Position numbers and translations under genes: made by a program. A model generated the notes under the pieces. That model did no database searches and was not told where the DNA came from. It saw only the letters and a list, made by a program, of their open reading frames with translations. Shown here one piece after another: positions 24,142-49,744 of a DNA stretch of 64,000 nucleotides (positions are counted from its first letter, which is position 1; every line of letters starts with the position of its first letter). This DNA comes from Clostridia bacterium (GTDB lineage Bacteria > Bacillota > Limnochordia > DTU080 > RSA5): contig PKEX01000017.1 in the NCBI GenBank assembly GCA_002919235.1, positions 1 to 64,000 of the forward strand, read 5' to 3'.

Positions 24142-24835
<694 letters not shown>

Positions 24836-24890
24836 CGCCCGCACCGGAGGTTAACGCCAGGACGACGCATTTGAGGAGGTTTCTCCAGCT

Positions 24891-26201
24891 ATGTCGAATC
24901 GCGCGGTGTATGACGTCCACGAAGTGCCTCCCCTGGCACAGATGATTCCCCTCTCCGTCCAGCACCTCTTCGCCATGTTCGGCGCGACGGTGCTGGTGCC
25001 GATCCTGACGGGAATGAACCCGTCGCTGGCCCTGCTCACGTCCGGCCTCGGCACCCTCTTGTTCCAACTCTTCACCCGCGGGAAGGTCCCGGCCTACCTG
25101 GGATCCAGCTTCGCCTACATCGCTCCTATCATCGCGGTCCAGAGCACCCTGGGAAGCGAGCGCTGGCTGGGCGCGGCGCAGGGCGCCATCATCGTCGTGG
25201 GTCTGGTGTATGCGGCGGTGGCGTTGATCATCGCCAAGGCGGGCACCGACTGGCTCGACCGGGTAATGCCGCCGGTGGTGATCGGCTCGGTCATCGTGGT
25301 CATCGGGATGGGCCTGGCCCCGGTAGGCATCCAGATGGCCGGGCTTTGCACGGGCGCTGAGTGCGGAAAGGAGTTCGTCTCCATCGCTCAAACGGACGTG
25401 CAGATCGCCCTGGTCACGCTGGCGGCGACCATCGTCGCCGCGGTGATCCTGCGGGGCTTCTTCGCCGTCATCCCCGTCCTCATCGGCATCGTGGCGGGCT
25501 ATCTCTACGCGGCGCTGGTGGGCGCGGTGGACTTTGAACCGCTGCGGGCCGCGGCGTGGATCGGGCTTCCCTGGGCCACTGGCGGCTATGCCCTCCCCAC
25601 GTTTGACTGGGTGGCCATCAGCCTGGTCGTCCCTGCGGCCATGGTGACCATCGCGGAGCACCTGGGCGACGTCTTCGTCCTCAGCAAAGTGGTGGGCCGG
25701 GAGTTTTACAAGGAGCCGGGTCTCACCCGCACGCTGCTGGGCGACGGCTTGGCCACCAGCCTGGCCGGTCTTTTGGGCGGCCCGCCCAACACCACCTACG
25801 GCGAGAATGTGGGCGTCCTGGCCATCACCCGGGTGTACAGCACGGCGGTGATCGGCCTGGCCGCCGTCTTCGCGATCCTGCTCGCCTTTGTGCCCAAGCT
25901 CGGGGCGTTCCTCCAGACCATCCCGACGCCGGTGATGGGCGGCATCAGCCTGGTCCTCTTCGGCATCATCGCCTCGTCGGGCATCCGCACTCTGGTGGAA
26001 AGCGGCATCGACTTCGGCGACAAGCGGAACCTCATCATCGCCTCGGTGGTGCTGGGCATCGGGATCGGCGGCGCCGAGCTGGGCTTTGGCCGCGTGACCT
26101 TCTCCGGGATGGCCCTCGCGGCGCTGGTGGGGGTCGTCCTCAACCTGCTCCTCCCGGATGTGAACGGCGCCGCGAAGCGGAGGGAGGAGGCGGCCCTTTG
26201 A
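24891..26201 (+). CDS. pyrP: Uracil permease
   Basis: The 436-residue NCS2-family transporter probably imports uracil with protons. Family segments include the start [59 protein letters not shown] with the substrate-binding Glu, and [20 protein letters not shown]. The ATG at 24891 has a GAGGAGG site. Position after pyrR matches the Bacillus operon. Its TGA overlaps the TTG start of pyrB. Confidence 0.93.
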
Positions 26202-27142
26202 GCCTGCGGCACAAGGATTTGCTCAGCCTGGCCCAGCTGTCCCGGGAGGAGATCGAGCTCGTCCTGGACACCGCCGAGGCGTGCAAGCAAATCTTTGACC
26301 GCCCGGTGAAGAAGTTCCCCACCTTGAGGGGGAAGGTGGTGGTCAACCTCTTCTACGAGGCCAGCACCCGGACCCGCACCTCGTTTGAGCTGGCGGGCAA
26401 ATGGATGAGCGCCGACGTGGTGAACTTCACGGCCTCCACCAGCAGCGTGATGAAGGGAGAGAGCCTCTCCGACACCGCGAAGACCCTGGAGGCGCTGGGG
26501 GCCGACATCATCGTGATCCGCCACCGCTCCCCGGGCGCAGCGCACTTGGTGGCCCGGGCCGTCCGCTCCCGGGTGATCAACGCCGGGGACGGCGCCCACG
26601 AGCACCCGACCCAGGCGCTGCTCGACCTCTTCACCATCCGGGAGAAGAAGGGGCGCCTCGACGGGCTCACGGTCACCATCGTCGGCGACATCCTGCACAG
26701 CCGGGTGGCCCGTTCGCAGATCATCGGCTTGAGCCGGATGGGCGCCCGGGTCCGGGTAGCAGGGCCGCCGACCCTCATCCCGGCGGGCCTCGAGCAGCGG
26801 GGCGTGGAGGTCTACCACCGGCTGGAGCCGGCCATCGACGGCGCGGACGTCATCAACGTGCTCCGCATTCAGCGGGAGCGGCAGGCGAAAGGGCTTTTCC
26901 CCTCCATCCGGGAGTACGTCCGCCTTTACGGCCTCACCCGGGAACGGCTGGCCGCAGCCAAGGAGGACGTCCTGGTGATGCACCCGGGGCCCGCCAACCT
27001 GGGCGTGGAGATCGCGCAGGACGTGGTCGAAGACCCGCGCTCGGCAGTGCGGGAGCAGGTGACCAACGGCGTCGCCGTCCGCATGGCCCTGCTCTACCTC
27101 ATGTCGGGAGGGGACGCGCGTGAGCTGCAAAGTGCTGGTTAA
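26198..27142 (+). CDS. pyrB: Aspartate carbamoyltransferase catalytic subunit
   Basis: PyrB joins carbamoyl phosphate and aspartate, the committed step to pyrimidines. The 314-residue enzyme retains the residues I can check: [18 protein letters not shown] with Ser and Lys of the 80s loop, the RHRSPGA Arg, [18 protein letters not shown] and VLRIQRER. Near the end, [11 protein letters not shown] has Leu where Arg is common. The start is TTG, overlapping the pyrP stop, behind AGGGAGGAGG. The next gene begins 23 bases before its end. It appears active, unlike CarA and PyrC in the same operon. Confidence 0.94.
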
Positions 27143-28421
27143 GGGCGTCGCCGTCTGGCAGGGAGACGGGTTTTCGGGCGCAGTGGACCTCTTGATCGAC
27201 GAGGGGCGCATCGCGCGGATGGGCAAGGGTCTCTCCGACCCCTCCGCCGTGGAGATCCGAGCGGAGGATTGGCTGGCCTTGCCGGGACTCGTCGACCTCC
27301 ACGCCCACTTGGGCGAGCCCGGGCACGAGGAGCGGGAGAGCCTGGACACCGGCCTCGCCGCGGCCGCCTGGGGCGGTTTCACCCACGTGGTGGCGATGCC
27401 GGACACCCAGCCGCCGGTGGATACGGAAAGCGCGGTCCAGTACCTGAAGGAACGGGCGAGCCGGATTCGGGGGGCGCGGCTTCTGATCTGCGCAGCGCTG
27501 ACCAAAGAGAGGTCCGGGATGGAGCTGGCCGAGCTGGCGCACCTGGCCGCCGCAGGGGCCTGCGCCCTGGGGGATGCGGCGCCGGTGGAAGATCCCGCGT
27601 TGATGCGGCGGGCCTTGCAGTACGCCTCGATGCTGGAGCTTCCGGTGTTCGCCCAGGCGGCGGACGCCCGCCTCTCCGGCGGCGGGGTCGCGCATGAGGG
27701 AAGCGCCGGGCACTGGCTGGGCCTTCCCGGCATCCCGGCGTCGGCGGAGTGGATCGCCGTGGCCAGGGAACTGCTCCTCGCGGAGGAGACCGGAGGGAGG
27801 GTCCACCTCCAAGGCGTCAGCACGGGCCGCTCCGTCCAACTGATCCGCGAGGCCAAGCGCAGGGGCGTGCGGGTCACCGCTGAAGTGGGCTTTTACCACC
27901 TGCTTTTGGACGACGAAGCCCTGGCGGACTACGACACCCGCAAGAAGCTGATGCCGCCGCTGCGCCCCCGCGCCGACGGGGAAGCCCTGCTGGAGGGAGT
28001 CCTGGACGGCACCGTCGACTGCATCGTCACCGACCATACCCCCTGCACCCCTGAAGAAAAGGATGCCGAATTCGACGTCGCGCCCTTCGGTGCCGCGGGG
28101 CTGGAGGTTGCGCTCCCGGCGCTGTACAGCCGGCTCGTCGCGACGGGCAAGGTCTCGTGGGCCGCTCTGATCGAGGCGCTCTCCGCCCGGCCGCGGCGGA
28201 TCGCCGGGCTCGGCGAAGCCCGGATCGCCGAAGGAGCGCCGTGCGACCTGACGCTCTTCGCCCCGGGCGAGTCGGGCTCTGTGGATCCTTCCCGCTGGCG
28301 CTCGAAAGCGAGGAACACCCCGCTGGCCGGGGAGCGCTTGTACGGCCGGGTGAAGGGGATCGCAGTCGGCCGGCGGCTGTGCGGTCCCTGCTTTGAGGAG
28401 CTGGAGGAGGTGGCGGGGTGA
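27120..28421 (+). CDS. pyrC: Dihydroorotase homologue with lost active-site residues (PyrC-like)
   Basis: By position and overall similarity this 433-residue protein is a type I dihydroorotase, the zinc enzyme closing carbamoyl aspartate to dihydroorotate. Compared with Bacillus PyrC as I remember it, His61 and His63 and Asp305 are kept. The metal-binding His of AHCED is Gln179 (VFAQAAD) and that of CHIST is Gly232 (LQGVST). Substrate residues also differ: FREPG is LGEPG (Arg to Gly65), MPNTRP is MPDTQP, and DHAPH is DHTPC. The reading frame is intact. It may be a non-catalytic partner of PyrB, as pseudo-dihydroorotases are in Pseudomonas, with an active enzyme elsewhere. The GTG start overlaps pyrB. 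Confidence 0.88.
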
Positions 28422-29437
28422 GCCCGGAGGACGGAGGCCTCAACTTCGCGGACCGGCTGTTCGCCGCGGTCCTGGAAAAGGAGAGCCCCTTGGTGGTGGG
28501 GATCGATCCGGACCCGCGGCAGATTCCCCCGCAGGTGTTCGGCCGGCCGCGCCCGAACGAGGGCGTGCGAGCGTTCCTCGCCCGGGGTGTCCAGCGCTTT
28601 TCCGAGGCGATCATCGCCGCCGTCGCGCCACACGCCTGCGCCGTCAAACCGCAGCTGGCCTACTTCGAGCGGCTGGGGCCGGACGGGCTGGGCGCGTACG
28701 AGGCGGTGGTGGCCTGTGCCCGGGCCCACGGGCTGCTGGTGATCGCCGACGGCAAGCGGGGTGACATCGCCTCCACCGCCTCGCAGTACGCCGCCGCCTA
28801 TCTGGGTGAAGGCCCCGGTCGCCCCGCCGCGGGAGAAGGGGCGGGAGAAGCGGAGAAATGGCTGACCGCGGCGGACCTCGAAGGGCCCAAAGCCGACGCG
28901 CTGACCGTCAACGGCTACATGGGACGGGACAGCCTCGCGCCGTTCTTGAACGCGCTGGACTGGGGGAGAGGCGCCTTCGTCCTGGTGAAGACGTCGAACC
29001 CCTCCTCCGGCGACTTGCAGGACCGGCGGCTCCTCGCCGAGGGAGAAGGTCCGGGCGAGCCGGGCCAGGGCGCCGCCGTGAGCGTGGCCGAGCTGGTGGG
29101 CGGGTGGCTCGAAGCGTACAACCGGGAGCGGGCGGGAACGTGGGGATACGGCCCTTTGGGCGCGGTGGTGGGCGCCACCTTCCCGGGCGAGCTGACCCGG
29201 CTCCGGCGGGCTTTGCCGCACACCCCGTTCCTGGTCCCGGGGTTTGGCGCTCAAGGAGGCGGCATCGGCGACGTGGCCGGGGGATTTGACGGCCGCGGGC
29301 TGGGCGCGGTGGTCAACGCGTCCCGGAGCGTCCTCTACGCCTACCGAGACAGCGGGGAGCAGGCCTTCGACCGGGCGGCGGCGCGCAAGGCGCGGGAAAT
29401 CAAGGAAGCGCTGAAAGCACGCCTTTTCCGGCTTTGA
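28418..29437 (+). CDS. pyrF: Orotidine 5'-phosphate decarboxylase (long type)
   Basis: PyrF decarboxylates OMP to UMP. The 339-residue protein is the longer class (UMP synthase-like), with VGIDPDPRQIP, the catalytic cluster IADGKRGDIASTASQYA, DALTVNGYMGRDSL, VLVKTSNPSSGDLQ and VPGFGAQGGGIGDV. An insert of about 30 Gly/Ala/Glu-rich residues after AAAYLGEG seems tolerated. It overlaps pyrC by 4 bases. In Bacillus pyrF stands after pyrD; here it lies between pyrC and carA. Confidence 0.92.
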   Translation: MSPEDGGLNFADRLFAAVLEKESPLVVGIDPDPRQIPPQVFGRPRPNEGVRAFLARGVQRFSEAIIAAVAPHACAVKPQLAYFERLGPDGLGAYEAVVACARAHGLLVIADGKRGDIASTASQYAAAYLGEGPGRPAAGEGAGEAEKWLTAADLEGPKADALTVNGYMGRDSLAPFLNALDWGRGAFVLVKTSNPSSGDLQDRRLLAEGEGPGEPGQGAAVSVAELVGGWLEAYNRERAGTWGYGPLGAVVGATFPGELTRLRRALPHTPFLVPGFGAQGGGIGDVAGGFDGRGLGAVVNASRSVLYAYRDSGEQAFDRAAARKAREIKEALKARLFRL

Positions 29438-29521: not shown

Positions 29522-30604
29522 GTGGCGGCGCGGGAACGAGCGGTTTTGGTGCTAGAGGACGGTTCAAGCTTTTGGGGCTGGGCGGTGGGCGCCCCGGGAA
29601 AGGTCGCGGGGGAGGTGGTGTTCTCCACGGCGATGACCGGCTGCCAGGAGCTCCTGGCCGACCCTGCCCTGCGGGGGGCGATCGTCACCATGACGTACCC
29701 GCTGGTGGGCAGCACCGGCGTGAGCGGCGGAGCGGAGGCGCCGCAGGCCGGTGGGCTGGTGGTGCGGGAGCTCTGCGACGTGCCCAGCCACTGGAGCGCC
29801 CGGCGTTCCCTGGCCGGCTTCCTCCGGGATCACGGCGTCGTGGCGGTGGAAGGCATCGACACCCGGGCGCTGACCCGGCGCCTCAGGGAGCGGGGCTCTA
29901 TGCGGGGCGTCCTGGCGACCGGCGAGGCCGACGTGGCCCAGCTGGCGAGGGACGCCCGGGAGCTGGCCGACCCTGCCGGCCGGGACCTGGTCCGGGAAGT
30001 GACGGCAGGCGGCGCCTACCTCTTTGCCGAGGGGCCCGGCCCGCGGGTGACGGTAGTCGACTGCGGCGTCACCCGGGCCGCACTGCGCCTCTTCGCCGGC
30101 CGGGGCTGCACCGTGACCGTGGTGCCGGCGGGCGCCGGCCCGGAGGAGGTGCTGGCCACGGAGCCGGACGGGGTGGTGATCTCCAGCGGCCCCGGTGACC
30201 CCCGATCCGTCCCGTACCTGGTGGAGACGGCGCGCCGGCTCGCCGAAGCCAGGCCCCTCTTCGGTTTCGGCCTGGGCCATCAGGTGATCGCCCGGGCGTT
30301 CGGGGCCGAGACCTACCGGCTGCCGCGCGGCCACCGGGGCGGGAACTATCCCGTGAGAGAACTGCCCTCGGGCCGGGTGTACATCACGGCCCAGAACCAC
30401 GGCTTCGCCGTGGCGGAAGGCTCGTGGAACGACCCCGACCTGGTGGTGACGCACCGCAACGTGCACGACGGGAGCGTGGAAGGCCTGGCGCACCGCCGGC
30501 TCGCGGTGCGGACGGTCCAGTTCCGGCCGGAGGCCTCGCCCGGGCCGGCCGACGCCGCCCACGTGGTGGACGACTTCCTCGCTTTGCTGCGCCGGCCGGC
30601 GTGA
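29522..30604 (+). CDS. carA: CarA-like small subunit of carbamoyl-phosphate synthase with dead glutaminase site
   Basis: CarA normally hydrolyses glutamine and passes ammonia to CarB. The 360-residue protein is collinear with the family: LEDGSSFWGWAVG, FSTAMTGCQELLADP, GIDTRALTRRLRERGSM, ISSGPGDP and the closing NVHDGSVEGLAH. The class I glutaminase triad is broken. The usual GICLGHQ is GFGLGHQ, so the nucleophilic Cys is Gly250 (codon GGC at 30269-30271). The HPEASPGP His is Arg335 (CGG at 30524-30526); Glu337 remains. Glutamine cannot be hydrolysed by the usual route. The frame is intact, and pyrK begins 12 bases later, exactly where carB would be expected. It may act as a scaffold, as in ammonia-dependent CPS I, or be in decay. 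Confidence 0.92.
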   Translation: MAARERAVLVLEDGSSFWGWAVGAPGKVAGEVVFSTAMTGCQELLADPALRGAIVTMTYPLVGSTGVSGGAEAPQAGGLVVRELCDVPSHWSARRSLAGFLRDHGVVAVEGIDTRALTRRLRERGSMRGVLATGEADVAQLARDARELADPAGRDLVREVTAGGAYLFAEGPGPRVTVVDCGVTRAALRLFAGRGCTVTVVPAGAGPEEVLATEPDGVVISSGPGDPRSVPYLVETARRLAEARPLFGFGLGHQVIARAFGAETYRLPRGHRGGNYPVRELPSGRVYITAQNHGFAVAEGSWNDPDLVVTHRNVHDGSVEGLAHRRLAVRTVQFRPEASPGPADAAHVVDDFLALLRRPA

Positions 30605-30616
30605 GGAGCTGGGAGA

Positions 30617-31423
30617 ATGGCAGAGCGCTACCGTCTGGAGATCCTCGACCACCGCGAGGTGGCTCCCGGGCACTGGGAGATGCTCCTCCCCCGGGTGGGC
30701 GGCCTCAGGGACGCGGAGCCCGGACAATTCGTCTCGGTCCTCTGCCGCACCGGTGAGAGCTGGGACCCGCTCCTGCGCCGCCCGTTCAGCATCTACCGGG
30801 CCGAGGAGGATGCGTTCAGCTTTCTCTACCGCGTCGCGGGCCGGGGGACCCGGCAGCTCTCCAGAGCCCGTGCCGGCGAGACGCTGGATCTGGTGGGCCC
30901 GCTGGGGAGGGGGTTTTGGTACCGGGACCTGGTCCCGGGATCCCGGGTGGCGCTGGTGGGGGGCGGGGTGGGCGTCCCGCCTCTTTTCTTCCTGTCGCAG
31001 CGCCTTCTCGAAGCCGGCGCCGTCCCCGAGATCTACGCGGGCTTTGCCTCGGCCCGGCAGGCAGTGGCGCTGGACCGGTGGCAGCGCCTGGGCCTTGCGC
31101 CGCAAGTGGCCACCGACGACGGGACCCTCGGCTACCGGGGCGTGGTGACCGAGCTCTTGGAAAGGCGCCTGGCCGGGGAGGGTCTCCAGCGGATCTACGC
31201 CTGCGGTCCCCGGCCGATGCTCCGAGAGGTGGCCCGCCTGGCGGGGGCTTGGGGCATTCCCTGCCAGGTGGCGATGGAAGAGTGGATGGCGTGCGGCGCC
31301 GGGGTCTGTTTGAGCTGCGTCATCAAGGTGGAGGACGACGCCTCTCCAGGCGGCCGGTGGATGCGGGTGTGCCGCGAAGGGCCGGTGTTCGACGGCGCAA
31401 AGGTGGTGTGGAACCGTGCATGA
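30617..31423 (+). CDS. pyrK: Dihydroorotate dehydrogenase electron transfer subunit
   Basis: PyrK carries FAD and a [2Fe-2S] cluster and links class 1B PyrD to NAD+. The 268-residue protein shows the flavin motif RRPFSIYR, the NAD-site [26 protein letters not shown] and the cluster Cys in [10 protein letters not shown] plus a fourth in RVCREGP. The ATG follows GGAGCTGGGAG. Its end overlaps pyrD by 8 bases, typical of the pair. Confidence 0.94.
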
Positions 31424-32345
31424 CGCGGCCGGGAACGCCGTCGACCTCTCGGTGCAGTTGGGCGGCCTCACGTTGAAAAATCCGGTCCTGGTCGCCTCCG
31501 GTACCTTCGGCTACGGCCGGGAGTTCGCCGGCTTTTTCGACCTGGGGCTCCTCGGCGGGGTGATGGTGAAAGGGATCTCGCTGGAGCCGTGGGAGGGGAA
31601 CCCGCTCCCCCGGATGGTGGAGACCCCCGCCGGCATGCTCAACGCCATCGGGCTGCAGAATCCCGGCGTCGAGCACTACTTGAAGCACGACCTCCCGTTC
31701 TTGCGTTCCTACGATACCCGGATCATCGTCAACGTCATCGGGAGGACGGTGGAGGAGTACGCCCGGGTGGTGGCCCGGATCGAGGCGGAGGACGGGGCGG
31801 ACGCCTACGAGCTCAACATCTCGTGCCCCAACGTTAAAGAAGGCGGCATCGCCTTCGGCAGCGACCCAGCGATGGCGGCCCAAGTGGTGGCCGCCGTGAG
31901 AGCGGAGACGGAACGTCCCGTCATCCCCAAGCTCTCGCCCAACGTGACCTCCGTGGCGGCGGTGGCGGCCGCGTGCCGTGAGGCGGGAGCGGACGCGGTG
32001 TCGCTGGTCAACACGTTTCTCGCGATGGCCATCGACGTCGATGCGGAGCGGCCCATACTGGCCAACGGGTTCGGCGGGCTCTCCGGCCCGGCCATCCGCC
32101 CGATCGCCGTCCGCATGGTGTGGGAGGTCTACCGGGAGGTGGATCTGCCCATCATCGGCATGGGCGGCATCATGACGGCGCGCGATGCGCTGGAGTTCAT
32201 CCTCGCGGGCGCCTCGGCGGTGGCCGTGGGGACCGCCAATTTCGTCAATCCTTACGCGGCGGTGGAGGTACTCCGGGGGATCGAGGACGCGGTCCGCCGG
32301 AGAGGGCCGCTGGCCGAGATGATCGGGCGGGCCCACCGGCGGTGA
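31416..32345 (+). CDS. pyrD: Dihydroorotate dehydrogenase, class 1B catalytic subunit
   Basis: PyrD oxidises dihydroorotate to orotate with FMN and passes electrons through PyrK to NAD+. The 309-residue protein has [39 protein letters not shown], the catalytic Cys in [13 protein letters not shown], and the FMN site [19 protein letters not shown]. Class 1B is supported by pyrK next to it and by the Cys base. The ATG overlaps pyrK. Confidence 0.95.
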
Positions 32346-32384
32346 GCGGCACTCGCCGCGGCCTTGCGACGGGAGGCATGGGCG

Positions 32385-32975
32385 TTGACGGAGACAGAGG
32401 TCCTGGAGATCTTTCGGGAGTCCGGAGCCCTGCTGGAGGGGCATTTCCTCCTCACCTCGGGGTTGCACAGCGACCGCTACTTCGAGAAGTTCGCGGTCCT
32501 GCAGCATCCGGAGCGGACCGAGCGGCTCTGCCGGGCGCTGGCGGAGCGCTTCCGCGACGACGGGGTCCAGCTGGTAGTGGGCCCGGCCGTCGGGGGGATC
32601 CTGCTGGCGCACGAAGTGGCCAAGCACCTGGGCACACGGGCGGTGTTCACGGAGCGGGAGGGCGGCCGCATGTGCCTCCGCCGGGGCTTTGCCATTGCGC
32701 CGGGCCAGCGGGTGCTGGTGGTGGAGGACGTGGTGACCACCGGCGGCTCCGTGCGGGAGGTGCTGGACGTGGTGCGGGAGGCGGGGGGCGAGCCGGTGGG
32801 GGTGGCGCTGCTGGTGGACCGCAGCGGCGGCGCGGTGGACTTCGGCGTGCGCACGGAAGCCCTCCTCCGGCTGGACGTGAAGGCGTATCGCCCCGAGGAG
32901 TGCCCTCAGTGCCGGGCTGGCGTGCCGCTGGCGGCCCGCGGGAGCCGTCACCTATCCGGCGGCCCGACGCCGTAG
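32385..32975 (+). CDS. pyrE: Orotate phosphoribosyltransferase
   Basis: PyrE joins orotate and PRPP to form OMP. The 196-residue protein has TSGLHSDRYFEKFAVLQHP, VVGPAVGGILLAHEVA and the PRPP loop VLVVEDVVTTGGSVREVLD. A Cys pair (CPQC) near the C-terminus is seen in the PyrE-like branch in several Bacillota. I prefer the TTG at 32385, 8 bases after GGGAGG; an in-frame TTG at 32364 has no good site. It ends the pyr operon, at a hairpin shared with the convergent cluster. Confidence 0.92.
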   Translation: MTETEVLEIFRESGALLEGHFLLTSGLHSDRYFEKFAVLQHPERTERLCRALAERFRDDGVQLVVGPAVGGILLAHEVAKHLGTRAVFTEREGGRMCLRRGFAIAPGQRVLVVEDVVTTGGSVREVLDVVREAGGEPVGVALLVDRSGGAVDFGVRTEALLRLDVKAYRPEECPQCRAGVPLAARGSRHLSGGPTP

Positions 32976-33026
32976 CGCCCGGGCTCCGGCCGGGTTTCAG
33001 CCGCCGGCGGCCGGAGCCCGGGGCGC
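32975..33026. terminator. Strong hairpin between pyrE and the ligase cluster
   Basis: A 17-bp GC stem (32975-32991 with 33009-33026, one bulged G) joins the 3' ends of the two convergent operons. The loop contains the stop codon of the minus-strand gene and the right arm lies inside its coding sequence. No clear T run. Confidence 0.6.
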
Positions 33027-34355
33027 GAAGCCGCTGCAGGAGAAGCAGTAGTTGAGCAGGCGGCGCCGGGCCACGCGGCGGATAGAGGGTTCGTCAAAGA
33101 CCGCAGGCTTGGAGTTGAGTTCAAAGATCCACGGGTGGCCGGCGGCGTCGAGGCCTACGTCCATGGAGAGCTCGCCGTGGCGGTCGCCGGTCGCCCGGTC
33201 GAACACTTCCGCCGCCCGGACGATCACCCGGTGCAGCTCCTGGGTGATGTGCCGGGCTTTTGCCTCGTCGCGGAAAATGGAGCGGATGAGGGGAGAGAGC
33301 CGGGCCCGGCTGCCGCCCCGGGGCCGGTGGGTCGTGATCTGCCCGCGCCCCGCGATGCGGGCGGCCATCCCCGTCACCAGCCAGCGGCCGTGGGCGTCTT
33401 TCTGCACCAGCGCCCGGATGTCGAAGGGCCGGCCGCCCGTCTTGAGCAGGGGTACCGCCTTCTGCATCAGGTACCGGCGGCCGCGGCGCAGGCGGGCCAG
33501 CGCCGCGCGCAGCTGGGCTTCCTTCCGCAGGGTGCGGTGGACCATATGCCCTCCCGGCCGGGTGGCGTGCCAGCCAAATCCGCCTCCCTTGAGCAGCTCC
33601 ACCCGGACGGTTCCCTTGCCCAGGCTCCCGTCGGCCATTTTCAGATACACGCGGCCGTGCTCCCGCAGAAAGCTGAGGAGCGAAGCGGCGCCGGTGCACG
33701 GCGTCGTGGCGGGAAGGTACGCCCGCAGCGTTTCGTCTTTGCTCAGGATCTGGTAGACGCTCCACTTGTCGAGGAACTCCGGGTTGAAGAGGTCGAGCCC
33801 CGGCTCCGCCAAGAGCCGCAGGCGGGCCTCGCGGACGCTCTTTCGCCTCTCCGCCTTGCGCGTCGGCACGCGGTTGTAGACCACGTCCGGAAAGGGGAAC
33901 GCGCCCCGGACCCACCGGTGTCCCTTTCCCGCGGGAAGGTACGTGTAGCCCCGGATGATCTTGCTTTGCCAGTGGATGCCCTTGGGCGTGAAGACGTAGG
34001 CGATGGCGCCCATCTCCCGGGCCAGGGCGATGAAGCGGCGAAAGCGCGCGGTGAGGCCGGCGAAGGGCCGGCGGGACCCCCTGCGGCACGACGAGGTGAA
34101 GATGCCGATGACGGGACCGATGCGCACGACGCCGTCTCTCACGTCGACGTGCAGGCGCCACGAGCCGGGGATGGAGAGGCGGCCCAGCATGGGGCGGGCG
34201 GAGAGGTCTCCGGGCCGCTGCCCTTCGCCCGTCACCGCCAGCGGGTGCAGGCCCAGGCGTACCTCATCTCCCCGCTTCAGCGCTTCGCAGGCGTCGGCGC
34301 CGGCTCTCAGTCGGATGCGGTGGCCCCGCGTGCCACGGACGAGCGTCGCCTCCAT
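32997..34355 (-). CDS. YheC/YheD-family ATP-grasp protein (cluster gene 10, last)
   Basis: The 452-residue protein has an N-terminal beta-rich region (1-80) and a YheC/YheD-type middle (IGIFTSS, YVFTPKGIHWQS, PFPDVVYNRVPTR, LFNPEFLDKWSVYQIL). An ATP-grasp domain follows with VYLKMADGSLGKG, YLMQKAVPLL and FDIRALVQKD. The metal-binding end is GELSMDVGLD and IFELNSKP. All expected ATP and Mg residues seem present, so it is probably an active carboxylate-amine ligase. Substrate unknown; Bacillus YheC/YheD are spore coat-associated. I prefer the ATG at 34355 behind GGAGGG. A Cys-Ser-Cys near the end is unique to this copy. It is separated from the preceding gene by 88 bases. Confidence 0.85.
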   Translation of the reverse strand: MEATLVRGTRGHRIRLRAGADACEALKRGDEVRLGLHPLAVTGEGQRPGDLSARPMLGRLSIPGSWRLHVDVRDGVVRIGPVIGIFTSSCRRGSRRPFAGLTARFRRFIALAREMGAIAYVFTPKGIHWQSKIIRGYTYLPAGKGHRWVRGAFPFPDVVYNRVPTRKAERRKSVREARLRLLAEPGLDLFNPEFLDKWSVYQILSKDETLRAYLPATTPCTGAASLLSFLREHGRVYLKMADGSLGKGTVRVELLKGGGFGWHATRPGGHMVHRTLRKEAQLRAALARLRRGRRYLMQKAVPLLKTGGRPFDIRALVQKDAHGRWLVTGMAARIAGRGQITTHRPRGGSRARLSPLIRSIFRDEAKARHITQELHRVIVRAAEVFDRATGDRHGELSMDVGLDAAGHPWIFELNSKPAVFDEPSIRRVARRRLLNYCFSCSGFAPRAPAAGG

Positions 34356-34443
34356 GCTGGATCCCTCCATGATTCTCGAATCGCGTCTCAGGGCCCGCCG
34401 CAGGCCCCGGAGACGAGCGGCGCGGACGAGGAGCCCTCGCACG

Positions 34444-35793
34444 TCAAAAACCCGCCAAGTACCGGGCGTACGCCATGGGCCGGCGGAACGAGAGGAAGAC
34501 CCGCCGCTTGGGCCCGGCGTCGAACACCTTGCGGAAGGGCTTCGCGTTCACCTCGATGAGCCAGACCCGCCCGCGGCGGTCCACCCCCAGGTCGAGGCCG
34601 ATCTCGCCCAGGGGGCTGTCGAACACTTCGTCCAAGGCTTCCACGATGGTCTTGGCCGCCTGGTTGATGCTGGCCCGGACCCGGCGGCGAGCCTTGCCGA
34701 AGCGGGAGCGCAGCACCCAGCCGAGGCCCATGGCGGTGCCTCCCCGGCTCAGGTTGGAGGTGAGCCGTCCCTTCGGTGCGACGCGGACGTAGATCTTGGT
34801 CCGCTTCCACGTCCCGCTCCCGTCCTTTTGCATCAGGATCCGCACGTCAAAGGGGGAGCCCCCTACGGTGGCGAGGCGAAGGTCGGGCTGCATGATGTAG
34901 CGCTTTCGCCGCTGGATGCGGGCGATGCCCTGGTAGAGCGTTTCGAACCGGCGGGTCTTGTGCTGCCGAGTTCCCCTCCGCCACTCGTACCAAGCACCGA
35001 GCCGCCGCACCCGGATGATCCCCTTCCCCTGGCTCCCTTCGGTGGGCTTGAGAAACGTCGCGCCGTGCTCTTCCAGGAAGGCCTTGAGGCTTTGGGGCCC
35101 CGTGAGCTGCCGGGTGTCCGGCAGGTAGCGGGCGAGGGCTTGGTGGCCGGACATCTTCTGGTACAGCGCCCACTTGTCGAAAAAGCCCTCGTTGAAATAC
35201 TTCACCGAGGGGAGCGAGCGGAGAAACTGCTTGGCCCGCTGGGCGCTGGGACGGCGTTCCCAGCTCCGAGACTGGATGCGGTCGTAGACGACGTCCGGCA
35301 CGGGGTAGCGGACGACGGCCCAGCGCCTGCCGGAAAGGACGAACCCTTCGACCCAGTCCCGCCCTGGCTGCACCCCGTCGGGCGTGAGGACCATGGCCAG
35401 CAGGTTGAGCCGCCGGGCGTGGCGCATCAGCTGGCGGATGTCGAGGTTGCGCGCGCCGAAGAGCCGGGGTGAGCGGGGGCCGGCTTTCCGCCGCTTGACG
35501 GCGAAAATGGCGACCACCGGTCCGATCCTGAGCCTGCCGTGCTCCCGGTCGAAGCGCATCCAGAGGGTCTTGGGGAGCGGCAGGAGGAGCTCTTTCGCGA
35601 GGCTGCGGCTCAAGGCGACCCGGGCGGAGCTTTCGGAAGGCAGGACCCGCACCGGGCGCGACCGGCTGCCGACCGAGAGCGGACCGGCGAAACCCTCCGG
35701 AAGTCCCATGGCGGCTATGAGCTTTTTCGGGATCGCCAGGGCGTCCTCGGGGAGGTCGCCCGCGACCAGCTGCACTTTGACGCTCTCGTCCAT
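34444..35793 (-). CDS. YheC/YheD-family ATP-grasp protein (cluster gene 9)
   Basis: The 449-residue protein has the same architecture as its downstream neighbour: an N-terminal beta region (KVQLVAGDLPEDALAIPKKL), the YheC/YheD signature PVPDVVYDRIQSRSWERRP, FNEGFFDKWALYQKM, and an ATP-grasp domain with TFLKPTEGSQGKGIIRV, YIMQPDLRL, FDVRILMQKD, GEIGLDLGVD and LIEVNAKPF. Key nucleotide and metal residues are present. It is Arg/Lys-rich and very likely basic. The ligation partners are unknown. It follows the amidoligase gene by 47 bases in the same direction. Confidence 0.85.
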   Translation of the reverse strand: MDESVKVQLVAGDLPEDALAIPKKLIAAMGLPEGFAGPLSVGSRSRPVRVLPSESSARVALSRSLAKELLLPLPKTLWMRFDREHGRLRIGPVVAIFAVKRRKAGPRSPRLFGARNLDIRQLMRHARRLNLLAMVLTPDGVQPGRDWVEGFVLSGRRWAVVRYPVPDVVYDRIQSRSWERRPSAQRAKQFLRSLPSVKYFNEGFFDKWALYQKMSGHQALARYLPDTRQLTGPQSLKAFLEEHGATFLKPTEGSQGKGIIRVRRLGAWYEWRRGTRQHKTRRFETLYQGIARIQRRKRYIMQPDLRLATVGGSPFDVRILMQKDGSGTWKRTKIYVRVAPKGRLTSNLSRGGTAMGLGWVLRSRFGKARRRVRASINQAAKTIVEALDEVFDSPLGEIGLDLGVDRRGRVWLIEVNAKPFRKVFDAGPKRRVFLSFRRPMAYARYLAGF

Positions 35794-35840
35794 CGGCCTC
35801 TTCCCTTCCGTGCGCGATTGGGGGCGTCCGGGCCGGCGGG

Positions 35841-37250
35841 CTAGCGGCGTCCGGCCTTCTTTTTCCTGGGCGCCGGCCGGATGAGGCCCCAGCGGACCCG
35901 GATGTCCCGCGACTCGTGCCAGCGCTTGTTGGCCCGGACGGATTCGGGAATGATCGCCAGCTCCCGGGCGTACTTGGCGTAGTCGTCCAGGGCTTCAAGG
36001 TCCGCCCACAACAGCTCGAAGATCTCGCGGCCTCCCTCTTTCTCGGCCTGGTAGAACAGGCGGCAGGTCTCGGGCGACGAGTAGACGTTGCGGGTGAGCT
36101 TTTCGTAATTGTCGACCACCAGCTTGGTGAGGCAGAGGACGGCCGCCGCGTACTGCGGGCCCACGATCCAGCTGGCGGGCGTCCGGTATTCGAACCCGCC
36201 GTAGCTCTCCCAGCGAAACTCTCCCAGCCAGCCGTATTTCTTGCGGCGCTTTTTCGCCTTCACCGGATTTTCCAGCATCATGACCGGGAAGGCCACGTAG
36301 TTGTCGAGCGCCCGCAGAAGCTCCGTGGTCAGCTCCACGCCGCTCAGGTGGATGTGCCCGCCGATGGGATACCCCGGCACCGGCAGGCTCCCCGCCTCCC
36401 AGCGCACGCCCTTCTTTGGTGTGCGGGCTTGGGCCCGAAGCAGCAGCCGCCGGATCCGCTCCACCAGTTCCAGCGGGTCTTTGGTGGGCCTCGGGCGCAG
36501 TTCGACGATGGGATGCGCTCCCCGCCGGCGCCTTGACCCCTGCTGGTCGTAGCCGACGCTGCCGTACCGGCTGAAGTAGCGGGAGGCGTAGAGGATCCCG
36601 CCGGTTTTCTTTCGCATGATGAACTCCAGGTCGGCGCCGAGCGTCACGTCGGACCGCTGGTACCAGCGTTTTTGCCGGCGCTTCACGTACGCCACGATGG
36701 CCTTGGCGTAAAGAGGCCCCGTGGTCTTGGTCAACGCCGGACTGGGGTCGACGTCGATGGGGACGAACTTTTTCTTCGAAAGCTTGCCCACGTCGACGCA
36801 GGCGAAGTGAAGCCCCAGCACGTACGCGGCCCGCACCGCCATCTCCCGGGCCCTCTGCAGCTGCTTGGTGGTGAGGGCCGTCACCCGGCGGTACTTGCCC
36901 CGGGACTTGCGGAAGAACGCCACCGTCCTCAGGTCGAAGACGTGGATGCGGTAGCGGGCCCGCACCCGGGGGATGCGGGAGTGCGCCGGCTTGTAGTAGC
37001 GGGTGCTGATGCCGTGCGCCTTGAAGGTGTCCACGACGTAGGCCGGGTCCTTGATCCGCTCCAAAGCCTCCACCGGGTTGAGCACCAGGTGGCGGCCGTC
37101 GTCGGCGCCGTCCGAGTTGCCCCATCGTATGACGGCGTCCCATGAATTGGGAATGTACTGGGTGTCGAAGATGGGTTCGGCGACCGCTTCCTTTGAGAAC
37201 TTCAAGCGTCGTACGTCGCTGGCCGCGCGGTACATCGTCAAGAGCTTCAC
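35841..37250 (-). CDS. Putative amidoligase (COOH-NH2 ligase type 2) fused to reduced ATP-grasp-like region (cluster gene 8)
   Basis: The 469-residue protein has two parts. Residues 1-195 resemble a shortened ATP-grasp fold: RIHVFDLRTVAFFR, then AAYVLGLHFACVDVG and VPIDVDPSP, as at the end of RimK-type domains, with the usual ATP-binding Lys region missing. Residues 200-460 match putative amidoligases of the glutamate-cysteine ligase fold: TLGADLEFIM, GGHIHLSG, YGWLGEFRWESYGGFEYRTP. Such enzymes form amide bonds between a carboxylate and an amine. The substrate is unknown. The start is GTG at 37250 or ATG at 37235. A second copy lies two genes upstream. Confidence 0.8.
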   Translation of the reverse strand: MKLLTMYRAASDVRRLKFSKEAVAEPIFDTQYIPNSWDAVIRWGNSDGADDGRHLVLNPVEALERIKDPAYVVDTFKAHGISTRYYKPAHSRIPRVRARYRIHVFDLRTVAFFRKSRGKYRRVTALTTKQLQRAREMAVRAAYVLGLHFACVDVGKLSKKKFVPIDVDPSPALTKTTGPLYAKAIVAYVKRRQKRWYQRSDVTLGADLEFIMRKKTGGILYASRYFSRYGSVGYDQQGSRRRRGAHPIVELRPRPTKDPLELVERIRRLLLRAQARTPKKGVRWEAGSLPVPGYPIGGHIHLSGVELTTELLRALDNYVAFPVMMLENPVKAKKRRKKYGWLGEFRWESYGGFEYRTPASWIVGPQYAAAVLCLTKLVVDNYEKLTRNVYSSPETCRLFYQAEKEGGREIFELLWADLEALDDYAKYARELAIIPESVRANKRWHESRDIRVRWGLIRPAPRKKKAGRR

Positions 37251-37312
37251 GCCGGACCCCCCGCCTCGCGCAGTTCGTCGAAAAGCTCAGTGGGGAACGA
37301 GGTGCTCCGACG

Positions 37313-37468
37313 CTACTTGCCGGTGGTCAGGATGAGCACGATGATGAGTCCCGCGAGGATGATGACATCGAAGGGATTAGGTGTGACGAGCACCTTGAGG
37401 AGCAGGACGGAGATCAGGGTGACGATGACGACGAATACAGCGTCGGAAAAGCCTCGAAAACGTCTCAC
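37313..37468 (-). CDS. 51-residue two-helix membrane peptide (cluster gene 7)
   Basis: A short frame in the gap between two cluster genes encodes 51 residues starting MRRFRGFSDAVFVV, with a GTG start 8 bases after GGAGGG (complement of 37478-37483). It has two hydrophobic stretches, AVFVVIVTLISVLLLKVLV and FDVIILAGLIIVLILTT, joined by a short TPNP turn, and a positive N-terminus. This suggests a small hairpin membrane protein with both ends inside. I do not recognise a family. It might anchor the ligases to the membrane. A weak promoter candidate, TACTAT (complement of 37497-37502), lies just upstream. Confidence 0.65.
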   Translation of the reverse strand: MRRFRGFSDAVFVVIVTLISVLLLKVLVTPNPFDVIILAGLIIVLILTTGK

Positions 37469-37551
37469 GGCGGCCACCCTCCCTCGTAGCTACGGTATAG
37501 TACACACCATCCCCCGGCGGAGGAATAGGAACGGGCTCCCATCCACGGGCG

Positions 37552-38712
37552 TCAGCGCCCCGCCGCGGCCTCAAGGGGGACGGGGGCGCGGGAGCTTTCG
37601 CCGGAGGGAGCGGGAGGGTGAAGCGCGAGGCCGCCTTGCGCCAGGAACCGGGCGAACTCCACCACCCGGATGCGGGAACGGCGCCAGGCTTTCCGGAGGC
37701 GAGCCCGGGCGAAGAGCGCGCGGCCGGGCTGCCGGTTCACCTCGAGAATCCAGGCGCGCCCTTCCGGGCCGAGGCCGATGTCGACGCCCAGCTCTCCCAG
37801 GGACGGATGGGCGCGGCTCAGCGCTTCTGCGGCCAGGAGCGCCACCTCCGCCACCTGCCGGCGGATGCGGGCTAGGGAGCCCTTGATCCGGGCGGCCCGC
37901 ACCAGGCGGGAGAGCCCCATGGCCCGGCCCCCGGCGTGCAGGTTGGAGACCAGCCGGCCTCGCCTTCCGGCCCGCACCCCCACGGCGCTCACCTGCCACT
38001 GCCCTCGGGAGTCCCTTTGCACGATGACCCGGACGTCCACGGTGCCGCCGGCCAGTCTCACGAGGTCGAGGCCCTGCTGCACGAGGAAGGCGTCGCCGGC
38101 GCGGCCCCGGCGGCACGCCGCCACCACCGCCTCGGCGCTGGGAAGCGTCTGGGACCGGCGGGGCGCCGAGGCCCGCGTCCAGTGCCAGCCCCGCTTCAGC
38201 TTCCGGCAGACGCTGATTCCCTTGCCCTGGCGGCCGCGGGCGGGTTTGACGTAGACGTACCGGTGCCGGGCGGCCAGCGCCAGCAGGTTCTCGGCCGTGA
38301 GGGGCAGCGTCTCGGGAAGGTGGGGCGCCAGCGCCTCGGTGCCGTGCAAGGTGCGGTACACGTCCAGCTTGTCGCCGAAATCCGGGTTGAAGCAAGGGAT
38401 GCCGTGCTCCTCGAACCGCTTCAGCTCTTCCGCGAAGCGGCGGCGGCCCAGCGGGCCTAGCCCCCACACCCGGTCGTAGACCACGTCGGGCAAGGGATGC
38501 CACCGCCGCCGCCAGCCGCCGGGCACGGGGGACCAGCCCCGCACCCGCTGCCGGGGCCAGTCGACGTCGCCCGGGCCGAAGACGTAGGCGTTCATCCCCT
38601 TCCTGCGGGCGATCGCGACGAGCCCCCTGAGGTACGAAGTCTGTTCGCCGAACCGCCGGCGGCGAAAGGTGCGGGCCGCGATGCCCAGCGTCGGGCGCGC
38701 GCTCTTGGCCAC
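37552..38712 (-). CDS. YheC/YheD-family ATP-grasp protein (cluster gene 6)
   Basis: The 386-residue protein lacks the N-terminal beta region of cluster genes 9 and 10 and starts directly with TLGIAARTFRRRRFGEQT. YheC/YheD signatures follow: AYVFGPGDVDWPRQ, PLPDVVYDRVWG, CFNPDFGDKLDVYRTL. The ATP-grasp part has VYVKPARGRQGKGISV, AFLVQQGLDLV, VDVRVIVQRD, GELGVDIGLG and ILEVNRQPG. Catalytic residues appear complete. The last 25 residues form a Pro/Ala-rich tail. It is 31 bases downstream of an amidoligase gene, repeating the amidoligase-YheC/YheD pairing seen at cluster genes 8 and 9. Confidence 0.85.
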   Translation of the reverse strand: MAKSARPTLGIAARTFRRRRFGEQTSYLRGLVAIARRKGMNAYVFGPGDVDWPRQRVRGWSPVPGGWRRRWHPLPDVVYDRVWGLGPLGRRRFAEELKRFEEHGIPCFNPDFGDKLDVYRTLHGTEALAPHLPETLPLTAENLLALAARHRYVYVKPARGRQGKGISVCRKLKRGWHWTRASAPRRSQTLPSAEAVVAACRRGRAGDAFLVQQGLDLVRLAGGTVDVRVIVQRDSRGQWQVSAVGVRAGRRGRLVSNLHAGGRAMGLSRLVRAARIKGSLARIRRQVAEVALLAAEALSRAHPSLGELGVDIGLGPEGRAWILEVNRQPGRALFARARLRKAWRRSRIRVVEFARFLAQGGLALHPPAPSGESSRAPVPLEAAAGR

Positions 38713-38743
38713 GCGGGTCCACCTCCTCAGCCAATGCCCGGGT

Positions 38744-40141: not shown

Positions 40142-41012
40142 GGAAGCCACCCTCTTTCGTCACACGGGCTAGAGCCGCTCGGATCAGGTGTGACGCCACG
40201 TCCACTCCCGTCGCCAGGGCAAAGCCCCGAAAGCCCGGGCACACGTTGACTTCCAAGACCACCAGCCCGCCGGAGACCCGCACGAGATCGACTCCGGCGA
40301 AGTCCGCCCCCACGGCGGCGGCGGCGCGGACTGCGATCCGTTCGGCCTCGGCGTCCAAAGGGGCGGGGACCGCTTCGCCGCCCAGCGCCAGGTTGGCTCG
40401 CCACTCGTCCCGGCGGGGGCGCTTGCGCACCGCTCCCAGCGAAAGCCCGTCGAGCACCAGCACCCGCAGCTCCTCCTGGATCCCGCGGCAGTAGGCTTGC
40501 AGGTACAGCGGTTCGGCGCCGGCGGCGGCCAGCCGCAGCAGCTCCTGCCGGCGGGCCACCCGCTGGACCCCGTCGCCGCCCGCGCCTTGGGGGGGTTTCG
40601 CCACCAGAGGATAGGGGAGCTTGCGCGAGAGCCGCACGGCGGCAGCGGGCGCCACGAGCCAGGTGGGAGGGTGAGGCACTCCCGCCCGGGCCAGCGCCCG
40701 GCTCATCAAACGCTTGTCGCGGCCCGTGCGGAAGGCCGGGGCACCGTTGATCACGGGCAGCCGCCCGGCGATGCACTCCAACAGGCGTACGCCGTCGTCG
40801 AGACAGCCGGCGTCGACGCGGCCGATGGCGATATCGAGAGAAAGGGGGGCGCCGTCCGGGTCCAGGAGGCATCCCTGGACCAGGTCGACGCTGGCTCTTT
40901 TCGGATCGACCCGCACCAGCTCGGCGCCGAGGGCGCGAGCCGCCCGGTGCAGCGCCTTCATCTCCCAGGTGTGCCCGGCGTCGCGGGTCACCACGCCGAT
41001 CCGGGGTTTCAT
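40092..41012 (-). CDS. RimK-type ATP-grasp ligase (cluster gene 4)
   Basis: The 306-residue protein resembles RimK/LysX, ATP-dependent enzymes that add amino acids to carboxyl ends. It has INGAPAFRTGRDKRLMSRAL, PYPLVAKPPQGAGGDGVQRV, LYLQAYCRGIQEELRVLVLD, VRKRPRRDEWRANLALGG, FAGVDLVRVSGGLVVLEVN and CPGFRGFALATG. All nucleotide and Mg residues expected from the family seem present. RimK enzymes add glutamate and LysX relatives add amino acids to carrier proteins; which applies here is unknown. The ATG overlaps the stop of the upstream glycosyltransferase gene (ATGA). Confidence 0.85.
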   Translation of the reverse strand: MKPRIGVVTRDAGHTWEMKALHRAARALGAELVRVDPKRASVDLVQGCLLDPDGAPLSLDIAIGRVDAGCLDDGVRLLECIAGRLPVINGAPAFRTGRDKRLMSRALARAGVPHPPTWLVAPAAAVRLSRKLPYPLVAKPPQGAGGDGVQRVARRQELLRLAAAGAEPLYLQAYCRGIQEELRVLVLDGLSLGAVRKRPRRDEWRANLALGGEAVPAPLDAEAERIAVRAAAAVGADFAGVDLVRVSGGLVVLEVNVCPGFRGFALATGVDVASHLIRAALARVTKEGGFRESAGPDAGNPLVQRA

Positions 41013-42016: not shown

Positions 42017-42065
42017 GGCGTCATCTCCTTTCGCACCGCCAGCGCAAGGTGAGAGTGATCCCATC

Positions 42066-43190: not shown

Positions 43191-43212
43191 GGGCGTTCAC
43201 CTCTTCGCCAGG

Positions 43213-45969: not shown

Positions 45970-45998
45970 CCCTCCGGGGCTAGAAGGAGGCGACGGGG

Positions 45999-48356
45999 AT
46001 GGAACCCGTGACGAGCCGGCATATTCCCGTGGAAGTCACGAGCGAGGTTTACCCCCATCCGGTCTGGCGCGACCTGGGGCTGACGGACTGGGAGTACCAG
46101 CGGCTGGTGGCCGCCCTGGGCCGGGAGCCCAACTGGACCGAGCTGGGCATGTTCTCGGCGCTGTGGTCCGAGCACTGCGCCTACAAGCACTCCCGGCCGC
46201 TCTTTGCTCTCTTTCCGACGGAAGGGGAGCGGATTCTGCAAGGACCCGGTGAAAACGCCGGCGTCGTCGACATCGGCGACGGGTGGGCCGTCACCTTCAA
46301 GGTGGAGTCGCACAATCACCCGTCCGCGGTGGACCCCTATCAAGGGGCGGCCACCGGCGTGGGCGGCATCCTGCGGGACATCGTCGCCATGGGCGCCAGG
46401 CCCGTCGCGCTGCTGAGTTCGCTCCGCTTCGGCGATCCCCGGGACGCCGATACCCGCCGGCTCGTCCGGGGCGTGATCCAAGGGGCGGCGGATTACGGGG
46501 CAGGGACCGGCGTGCCGGCGGTCGCCGGCGAGATCGGGTTTGACCCCGCGTTTCAGAAAAATCCGCTGGTGAACGTGATGGCGGTGGGACTGGTCCGGCA
46601 CCAGCAGGTGACCCGGGCCTGCGCCGAAGGCGTGGGCAGCGCGGTGATCGTGGCCGGCGCGCCCACCGGGCGGGACGGGATCCACGGGGCGAGCTTTGCC
46701 TCGTCCGAGCTGGCGGCGGAACCGGAGTCGGGAGAGTCGCCCGTTCCCATCGGCGATCCCGGGAAAGGGAAGCGGTTGATCGAAGCGTGTCTTGAGGCCA
46801 TCTCCCTGGGCCTGGTGGCCGCGATCCAGGACATGGGCGCCGCGGGCCTGACCAGCTCCGCCGCGGAAATGGCCGCCAGGGCCGGCTCCGGCATCGAGAT
46901 GGACCTCTTGAAGGTGCCCCGGCGGGAGCCGGGGATGACGCCTTTCGAGTTGATGCTTTCCGAGTCGCAGGAACGGATGCTCATCGTGGCCCGCCCCGGC
47001 GCCGAGGAGCGGGTGAAGGAGATTTTCCGCAAGTGGGACCTGGAAGCGGCCGTCGTGGGCCGGGTGACGGGCGACGGGATGCTCCGGCTCTTCGAGGGCG
47101 AGACCCTGGTGGCCCAAGTGCCCGCCAGAGCCCTCTCCACCGACGGCGCCCCGGTCTACCACCCCGAAGCGCGGGTGCCCGAGTATCTCGAAGCGCTGCG
47201 GCGAGCGGCTCTCCCGCCCGACCTCGAGGGCGACGCGACGCCGTGGCTCATCCGGCTCCTCCAAGATCCCAGCATCGCGAGCAAAGCTCCGCTCTACCGG
47301 AGATTCGACGAAAAGGCGGGCGGGCGGACCGCGGTGGGCCCCGGCAAGGCGGACGCCGGCGTGCTGAGGGTCGAAGGGACGGCGAAAGCCCTGGCGGTCA
47401 CCGTCGACTGCAACAGCCTTCACTGCTACGTCGATCCTCGCACGGGCGCGGCGGCCGCGGTGGCCGAGGCCGCCCGCAACCTGGCCTGCACGGGCGCGCG
47501 GCCCCTGGCCCTCTCCGACGGGCTCAACTTCGGCAGCCCGGAAAAGCCCGAGATCTTCTGGCAGCTCCGCCAGGCGGTGACGGGCATCGCGGAGGCGGCC
47601 AGGGCTCTGGGAACTCCGGTGATCGGCGGAAACGTCAGCCTCTACAACGAAAGCGACGGCCAGGCCGTATGGCCCACGCCCGTCATCGGGATGGTGGGAC
47701 TGATCGACGACGCGGAGAAGGTCGTGACTTCCGGCTTCAAACGCCCGGGCGACGTGGTCTTCGTCCTGGGCGCCCCGGGCGCCGGTCCCCGCGCTCTGGG
47801 CGGCAGCCGCTACCTGGCGTCCCTGCACGGCGTGGTGAAAGGGCCTTTGCCCGAACTGGACCTGGACCTTGAACGCCGGGTGCAAGAGGCCTGCCTCGAA
47901 GCGGCGGCCGCCGGGATCCTGGCGTCGGCCCACGACGCGTCGGACGGCGGGCTCGCGGTGGCGCTGGCCGAGGCGGCCCTCGGCGGGAGGCTGGGCGTCT
48001 CGGCGCTCCTGGAGGCGGAGGCGCCCGCTGAGGGCGAAGCGCGGTTGGACGCGCTGCTCTTCGGGGAAGCGTACTCTCGCATCGTCGTCTCCACCCGGCC
48101 GGAGGACGCGGGAGCCTTAGAGGCCATCGCCGGCAAGCACGGGGTGCCTCTCGCGCGGGTGGGCGTCGTCACCCCTGAACAAGACGGCTTTGAGCTGCGG
48201 GCAGAGGTGCGGGCGGCCGGCGCGGTCCGGTCGGCGGTGATCCGGGCGTCCCTGGCCGACCTGCGCGCGGCTTGGGAAGAAGCCCTCTCTTTCTTGGCGG
48301 GCGAGGGGGAGGGAGCCTCGCCCGGCCGGGGGGCGGGCGGAGGGGCCGGGGAATGA
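45999..48356 (+). CDS. purL: Phosphoribosylformylglycinamidine synthase II (PurL, small type)
   Basis: PurL makes FGAM from FGAR with ATP and ammonia. The 785-residue protein is the small type that normally works with PurQ (glutaminase) and PurS. It has [17 protein letters not shown] with the catalytic His, [37 protein letters not shown] and [17 protein letters not shown]. No purQ or purS lies in the window: purB ends 29 bases upstream and purF overlaps downstream. The C-terminal 20 residues are a Gly/Glu-rich extension. Its last bases overlap purF (ATGA). PurL alone can use free ammonia. Confidence 0.95.
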
Positions 48357-49744
48357 GCGGCGTCTTCGGCGTGTACAGCCCGTCTCCCGTGGAGGCGGCC
48401 GACTTGACCTACCTGGGTCTTTACGCCCTGCAGCACCGGGGACAGGAGAGCGCGGGGATCGCCGTGTTCGACGGCTCCGCCGTGCGGGTTCACAAGGGGC
48501 CGGGCCCTGTCTCCCGGGTGTTTGACGAGGCTTCCCTGAAGGGTCTTCCCGGCCGGGTCAGCGTGGGGCACGTGCGCCACGCGGAGCGGGGCGCGCCGTC
48601 GGCCGCCGACGCGCAGCCGCTGGTGGGGCTCTTGCGCCACGGCCAGCTGGCCCTGGCCCACGACGGCAGCGTGGTGAACGCCGGGGCGCTCCGGCGAGAG
48701 CTCCTGGAGGCCGGCGTGGTCTTCCAGACGGAGACCAGCGCCGAGGTGATCCTCCACCTGATCGCCGCGGAGGCGGGGGTCTCCTTGGAAGAGGCCATCT
48801 GCCGGGCGGCCCGGCGCCTTGTAGGCTCGTACGCCATCGGCATCGTCGGACAGGGCCGCCTCATCGGAATCAGGGATCCCCTGGGCATCCGGCCCCTAGC
48901 GGTCGGCCGCTCCGGCGATGCGTGGTTCGTGGCCTCCGAGTCGTGCGCGTTCGACGCCGCCGGCGCCGAGCTGGTGCGGGACGTCGCGCCCGGCGAGATG
49001 GTGGTCATCGACGAAGAGGGCCTGCGCTCGTTGCGGTTCGCGGAAGGCGCCCGGGAAGCCATGTGCGTTTTCGAGTTCATCTACTTTGCCCGCCCGGACA
49101 GCGTCATCGACGGGAAGACCGTCCACGAGGTGCGGAAGGAGATCGGCCGGCGCCTGGCGCGGAAGGTGGCCATCGAGGCGGACGTGGTCATCGCCGCGCC
49201 CGACTCGGCCTCTTCTGCCGCGCTGGGCTTTGCTGAGACAGCGGGAATCCCCTTCGACGTGGGGCTGGCCACCAACCGCTACGTCGGGCGCACCTTCATC
49301 CAGCCGACGCCTGCCATGCGCCGCAGGGGCGTGCACATCAAGCACAACCCCATCGTCGAGACGCTGCGGGGCAAGCGAGTGATCCTGGTGGACGACTCCA
49401 TCGTGCGGGGGACCACCAGCCGCCGGATGATCCGGCTCCTGAAAGAGGCGGGGGCGAAAGAGGTCCACATGGTGGTGGCGTCGCCGCCTTTTTCCCATCC
49501 CTGCCTCTACGGCATCGACGTGCCCAGCTCGGACCAGCTGATCGCTGCCGGCCGGAGCGTCAACGAAGTGTGCCGCCTGATCGGCGCCGATTCCCTCCAC
49601 TACCTGGATTTCGAATCCCTTTACCAGGCAGTGGGCGTCGACGGGCGAAGGCTTTGCGCCGCGTGCTTCGGCGCCCCGTATCCGACCCCGGTGGACGGCG
49701 GCGCCTCCCAGGGCGGCGACGTCTTGGCGAAGGGGAGGATGTAA
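48353..49744 (+). CDS. purF: Amidophosphoribosyltransferase (PurF) lacking the catalytic cysteine
   Basis: PurF makes phosphoribosylamine from PRPP, normally using ammonia released by its N-terminal glutaminase domain. The 463-residue protein is otherwise full length, but begins [10 protein letters not shown]: Ser2 (AGC at 48356-48358) replaces the invariant nucleophilic Cys. The glutamine-binding Asn of AHNGN is Asp104 (AHDGS) and the Asp of SSDTE is Ser129 (ETSAE). Arg75 is kept. The phosphoribosyltransferase half is intact, with [19 protein letters not shown], and the Cys set of Fe-S type PurF seems kept ([20 protein letters not shown]). It should work with free ammonia only. The ATG overlaps purL. 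Confidence 0.93.

Follow-up and report, generated by a model that had tools for sequence, protein, structure and literature searches.

The stretch of DNA that was analysed, referred to here as the window, is 64,000 nucleotides long and carries a pyr operon with the gene order pyrR-pyrP-pyrB-pyrC-pyrF-carA-pyrK-pyrD-pyrE. The genes upstream of carA, pyrR to pyrF, occupy positions 24299..29437 of the forward strand, and pyrK, pyrD and pyrE follow on the same strand at 30617..32975. Between them, carA (29522..30604, forward strand) encodes the small subunit of carbamoyl phosphate synthetase (CPS), assigned by profile match and an AlphaFold model, with an inactivated glutaminase site, that is, a pseudo-glutaminase. 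The gene has a GTG start and an uninterrupted frame of 360 amino acids, and its stop lies 12 bases from the start of pyrK. The large-subunit gene, carB, is not situated between carA and pyrK and was not found anywhere in the window. Downstream of the operon, positions 32997-44358 of the reverse strand hold at least five related open reading frames, which we take to resemble YheC/YheD ATP-grasp spore-coat proteins.

The window CarA matches TIGR01368 over its full length (residues 7-356; 381 bits, cut-off 307) and PF00988 with 142 bits. Its residues were assigned by alignment with 112 intact-site CarAs, from which the E. coli numbering was also read. Codon 250 (GGC, 30269..30271, forward strand) encodes Gly where E. 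coli has the nucleophilic Cys269, and the protein here reads FGFGLGHQ, the usual form being GICLGHQ. Codon 335 (CGG, 30524..30526, forward strand) encodes Arg where E. coli has the catalytic His353, within QFRPEAS, usually QYHPEAS. Only Glu337 is left of the Cys-His-Glu triad of class I glutaminases; Gln254 is retained as well. The same alignment places two further substitutions: Ala at codon 49 (GCC, 29666..29668, forward strand), which corresponds to Ser47 of the E. coli glutamine pocket and is Ser in 99% of live CarAs (those with an intact site), and Thr at codon 184 (ACC, 30071..30073, forward strand), which corresponds to E. coli Lys202 and is Lys in 99% of live CarAs. Since both Cys and His are present in all of the approximately 80 readable database CarAs outside the group, the window residues are not chance variation. 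The initial annotation had reported the replacement of Cys and His by Gly250 and Arg335 in a protein with Glu337 and the frame intact, and this description is borne out by the profile match and the alignments. At the level of sequence, these comparisons show that the glutamine-splitting site is destroyed at the Cys, His, Lys202 and Ser47 positions; judged by its residues, the protein is a CarA by descent and not a glutamine-hydrolysing one. The AlphaFold model (pLDDT 90.5) superimposes on E. coli CarA with a TM of 0.93, the C269S mutant structure 1c30 included, and on human CPS1 with a TM of 0.87-0.89, showing, as far as a predicted structure can, that the fold and the remainder of the protein are retained despite the dead site.

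The genome to which the window belongs is a draft of 2.24 Mb in 47 contigs and is 99.45% complete. A PF00988 search of this genome gave no match beyond the window carA, and a CarB search gave a single match, on contig 1. This is an intact carB of 1093 amino acids (L009, 6750..10031, reverse strand; 1108 bits to E. coli CarB) and the last gene of an argC-argJ-argB-argD-carB operon, on a contig other than that of carA. A partner CarB is thus encoded in the arg operon of the same genome, and the earlier statement that carB is missing holds locally, where pyrK directly follows carA, but not genome-wide. The split of carA in pyr and carB in arg also occurs in relatives with a normal CarA (e.g. G012, G016, G025 and G008); it is a class trait, common in the class, and no sign of lost function. 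The local absence of carB is therefore uninformative on the loss of the glutaminase and was rejected as evidence of changed function.

The distribution of the dead site was examined in 72 genomes of the class, which is probably Limnochordia; most of these genomes are MAGs. As far as the sequences reach, Cys and His are both gone from ten CarAs, each in a different genome of the 72, so the dead site proved to be a clade-level feature. The initial annotation had named normal Cys and His in close relatives as evidence against its reading; the nearest relative, G001, has Ser for Cys and Asp for His. Eight of the ten dead CarAs form one clade with support of 89/89 that spans four families (f1, f2, f4 and f5), and the dead state is therefore probably old. 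The dead CarA of G003 stands apart, within a clade of live CarAs and with starred support, and that of G005 is placed elsewhere in the tree; judging by this topology, the site was lost in at least two independent events, and probably three. A live second CarA copy is also present in G004 and G005. Among 82 columns conserved in live CarAs, four are altered in all ten dead ones, namely the positions of Ser47, Cys269 and His353 and one more; the N-terminal domain, SGPGDP, GHRG and NHG are retained. Three dead CarAs of one genus (L160 and L162 in G006 and G011, L163 in G015) carry His or Asp in the column of E. coli Gly293; the window CarA retains Gly. The CarA of G037 (L215) is split over two frames near the glutaminase domain, its active-site residues being otherwise normal.

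One explanation of the dead site, which we regard as improbable, is that carA is a decaying pseudogene whose frame is intact only through recent loss, and that CarB acts alone on ammonia. CarB alone does seem viable, because several class genomes have carB without any carA. The window CarA is also divergent: compared with G001, its dN/dS is 0.30, against 0.14-0.24 for pyrB, pyrC and pyrF, and it thus evolves faster than its neighbours. However, when three genomes of one genus are compared, dead CarA has a dN/dS of 0.09-0.15 (0.04-0.11 in the N-terminal domain), similar to the adjoining pyrC and pyrF, which indicates purifying selection. The grouping of eight dead CarAs from four families likewise argues against a recent decay, and so does the conservation of CarB.

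All eight CarBs from genomes with a dead CarA have preserved two motifs intact, VTxxTxAxFEP (E. coli about 340-350) and VYKxVDTCAxEF (about 526-537), and these CarBs keep 263-270 of the 272 positions conserved in live-partner CarBs (185 of 186 in one fragment). Both motifs are erased in 10 of the 11 CarBs from genomes without CarA. The exception is G034, a genome 91% complete with live GuaA and PurQ, whose carA is probably just unassembled on these grounds; it is doubtful that G034 is a true CarB-only genome. In human CPS1, where a dead glutaminase domain is retained, both motifs are recognisable. We infer from this pattern that the two motifs mark partnership with CarA, and their retention with dead CarA and erasure without CarA suggest that dead CarA probably still docks on CarB. 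No CarB change expected to raise ammonia affinity was found. Second CarB paralogues without an adjoining carA and with erased partner motifs occur in three genomes (L166 in G003, L190 in G020 and L221 in G062); of such lone paralogues, one belongs to an arg and one to a pyr operon, and the genomes that harbour those with damaged motifs have a second carAB pair.

CarA is not the only amidotransferase of the organism with an altered glutaminase. In the window, purF (48353..49744, forward strand) has Ser for the catalytic Cys1 (codon 48356-48358, AGC): the protein begins MSGVFG, with Ser at the Cys1 position of the B. subtilis enzyme, and its glutamine-site motifs read AHDGS for AHNGN and TSAE for SDTE. 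By these residues, the PurF glutaminase is dead too, which the initial annotation had not remarked on; the Cys1 to Ser change is common to this genome, G002 and G003. The purL gene (45999..48356, forward strand) directly follows purB, and a search limited to the operon found no purQ near it. At the purB-purL junction (45969-45999), the operon has no purC, purS or purQ. In ten relatives purQ adjoins purL, and nine of the ten have live CarA and GuaA. GuaA, encoded on contig C21 (L218, 10250..11977, reverse strand), keeps a glutaminase-like domain that has lost its catalytic Cys and reads PALAVGPATGLM, others reading PVLGICYGMQLM. PF00117 matches five proteins of the genome: PyrG, HisH and a PuuD-like hydrolase, all live, the dead GuaA, and CarA. 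All five being assigned, this search found no TrpG or PabA. GlmS is live, and a glutamine synthetase is present, so that glutamine is available to the organism.

This availability, together with the retention of Glu337 and Gln254, would favour a second explanation, by which glutamine is still hydrolysed, either because the site in the window CarA has been rewired or because CarB has recruited another glutaminase; a separate glutaminase of another fold may feed CarB. We consider continued hydrolysis very unlikely. To our knowledge, no class I glutaminase mechanism functions without the Cys, and the positions of Ser47, Cys269 and His353 are altered in every dead CarA. The five PF00117 proteins of the genome all have an assigned identity, and relatives with the same dead CarA have no glutamine synthetase. 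An error of sequencing, assembly or binning, for which only the draft state of the genome in 47 contigs speaks, is practically negligible and already refuted by the same loss in independent relatives from other assemblies, four separate codons being changed, two of them differing from the usual codon by at least two bases, and two further amidotransferases of the genome being inactivated as well.

The window CarA thus most probably belongs, as small subunit and pseudo-glutaminase, to a CPS that depends on ammonia and works in the manner of vertebrate CPS I. The initial annotation had proposed changed function rather than error and drawn the CPS I analogy; both proposals gain support from the loss of the same residues in relatives, the purifying selection and the intact sole carB. 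In the proposed mechanism, CarA would stay bound to CarB in a structural or gating role. Ammonia would enter in free form, with no glutamine as its source, and CarB would use it, with bicarbonate and two ATP, to make carbamoyl phosphate for pyrimidines and arginine. The change in CPS would belong to a wider shift of the genome away from glutamine and toward free ammonia, in which the Cys of GuaA and PurF is lost, purQ is gone from beside purL and no TrpG or PabA was found. E. coli CarB is able to form carbamoyl phosphate from NH3 in vivo (PMC6245113); the very high ammonia that E. coli CPS requires (PMC6245113) counts against the ammonia reading.

Comparison of amidotransferases across the class is consistent with such a shift. 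The states of CarA and GuaA agree in 46 of the 48 class genomes with a readable GuaA, and in 31 of 33 among the scored genomes that have carB. On supported branches, changes in CarA and GuaA coincide in five of five independent pairs (phylogenetic sign test, p = 0.06, the minimum for five pairs). Many GuaAs of the class have shrunk to the synthetase domain and a remnant. Glutamine synthetase (PF00120) was matched in 34 of the 72 class genomes and gave no match in the other 38; as a control, PF00120 matched in all 14 control genomes. Live CarA occurs in none of the 38 genomes without glutamine synthetase, against 19 of the 34 with one. The Cys of PyrG is retained nearly everywhere in the class, and that of PurF is kept in family f8 genomes, which have no glutamine synthetase; the shift is therefore partial and lineage-specific. 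PyrG copies without the glutaminase Cys were seen in three genomes (L340 in G063, L338 in G050 and L339 in G056). Two broader accounts were rejected: that loss of glutamine synthetase drives everything, since the genome under study has one and f8 PurF keeps its Cys without one, and that all glutaminases are lost, since PyrG is live nearly everywhere and this genome has live GlmS and HisH. On balance, with odds only slightly better than even, the class has repeatedly dismantled its glutamine economy, the glutaminases of CarA, GuaA, PurQ and sometimes PurF being lost together, GuaA at least five independent times, toward an endpoint without glutamine synthetase at which nucleotide and arginine nitrogen would come from free ammonia. 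Limnochordia are known from thermophilic compost, digesters and manure, and three closed genomes have been reported (PMC11456536). The shift is plausibly tied to life in ammonia-rich compost, manure and digesters.

The closest known parallel is vertebrate CPS I. In human CPS1 (structure 5dou) the catalytic Cys is replaced by Ser294 in the glutaminase-like domain (PMC4655335), and, as in the window CarA, that domain is folded and lacks the catalytic Cys, the synthetase being intact. Vertebrate CPS I uses ammonia, as the bacterial enzyme would. In human CPS1, Gln blocks the old tunnel at the E. coli Gly293 position, where G006, G011 and G015 have His or Asp. Unlike CPS I, the enzyme described here is bacterial, consists of two polypeptides from two operons on different contigs with no fusion in one chain, serves both pyrimidine and arginine synthesis, has lost both Cys and His, and arose separately within bacteria. 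It thus shares with CPS I the inactive glutaminase-like domain and intact synthetase, and, its subunits being separate, would work like CPS I without being a member of that type. With E. coli CarAB (CPS II) it shares family, fold (42% class identity, TM 0.93) and the CarB motifs; E. coli uses glutamine, whereas the window site is naturally dead, and the engineered C269S mutant of E. coli (1c30) is its laboratory equivalent. NadE type N is a further parallel: many enzymes of this amidotransferase family have no glutaminase and rely on free ammonia in vivo (PMC3376133). The NadE survey counted just one other amidotransferase that uses free ammonia in vivo and found no glutaminase-less GuaA in 730 genomes or CPS in 600 (PMC3376133), whereas here the glutaminases of CPS and GuaA are both lost, together with PurQ and PurF function. 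CPS III of Alcolapia fish (PMC7657897) is a convergent move of a glutamine CPS toward ammonia, but it keeps the catalytic triad and has lost one glutamine-binding residue.

In the literature, every bacterial CPS is held to draw its nitrogen physiologically from glutamine (PMC6245113), with CPS1 the sole CPS type said to do without it (PMC4655335); no report of a bacterial dead CarA or of an ammonia-only bacterial CPS was found in the open literature. Automatic annotation of the window CarA as glutamine-hydrolysing, from the name of TIGR01368, is wrong, and metabolic models that depend on it would be wrong too. Because relatives with live, dead and no CarA coexist in the class, both the route from glutamine to ammonia and a non-catalytic role of CarA are directly testable. 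If true, a bacterial CPS that runs on ammonia and retains a pseudo-glutaminase would give CPS I a natural counterpart among bacteria.
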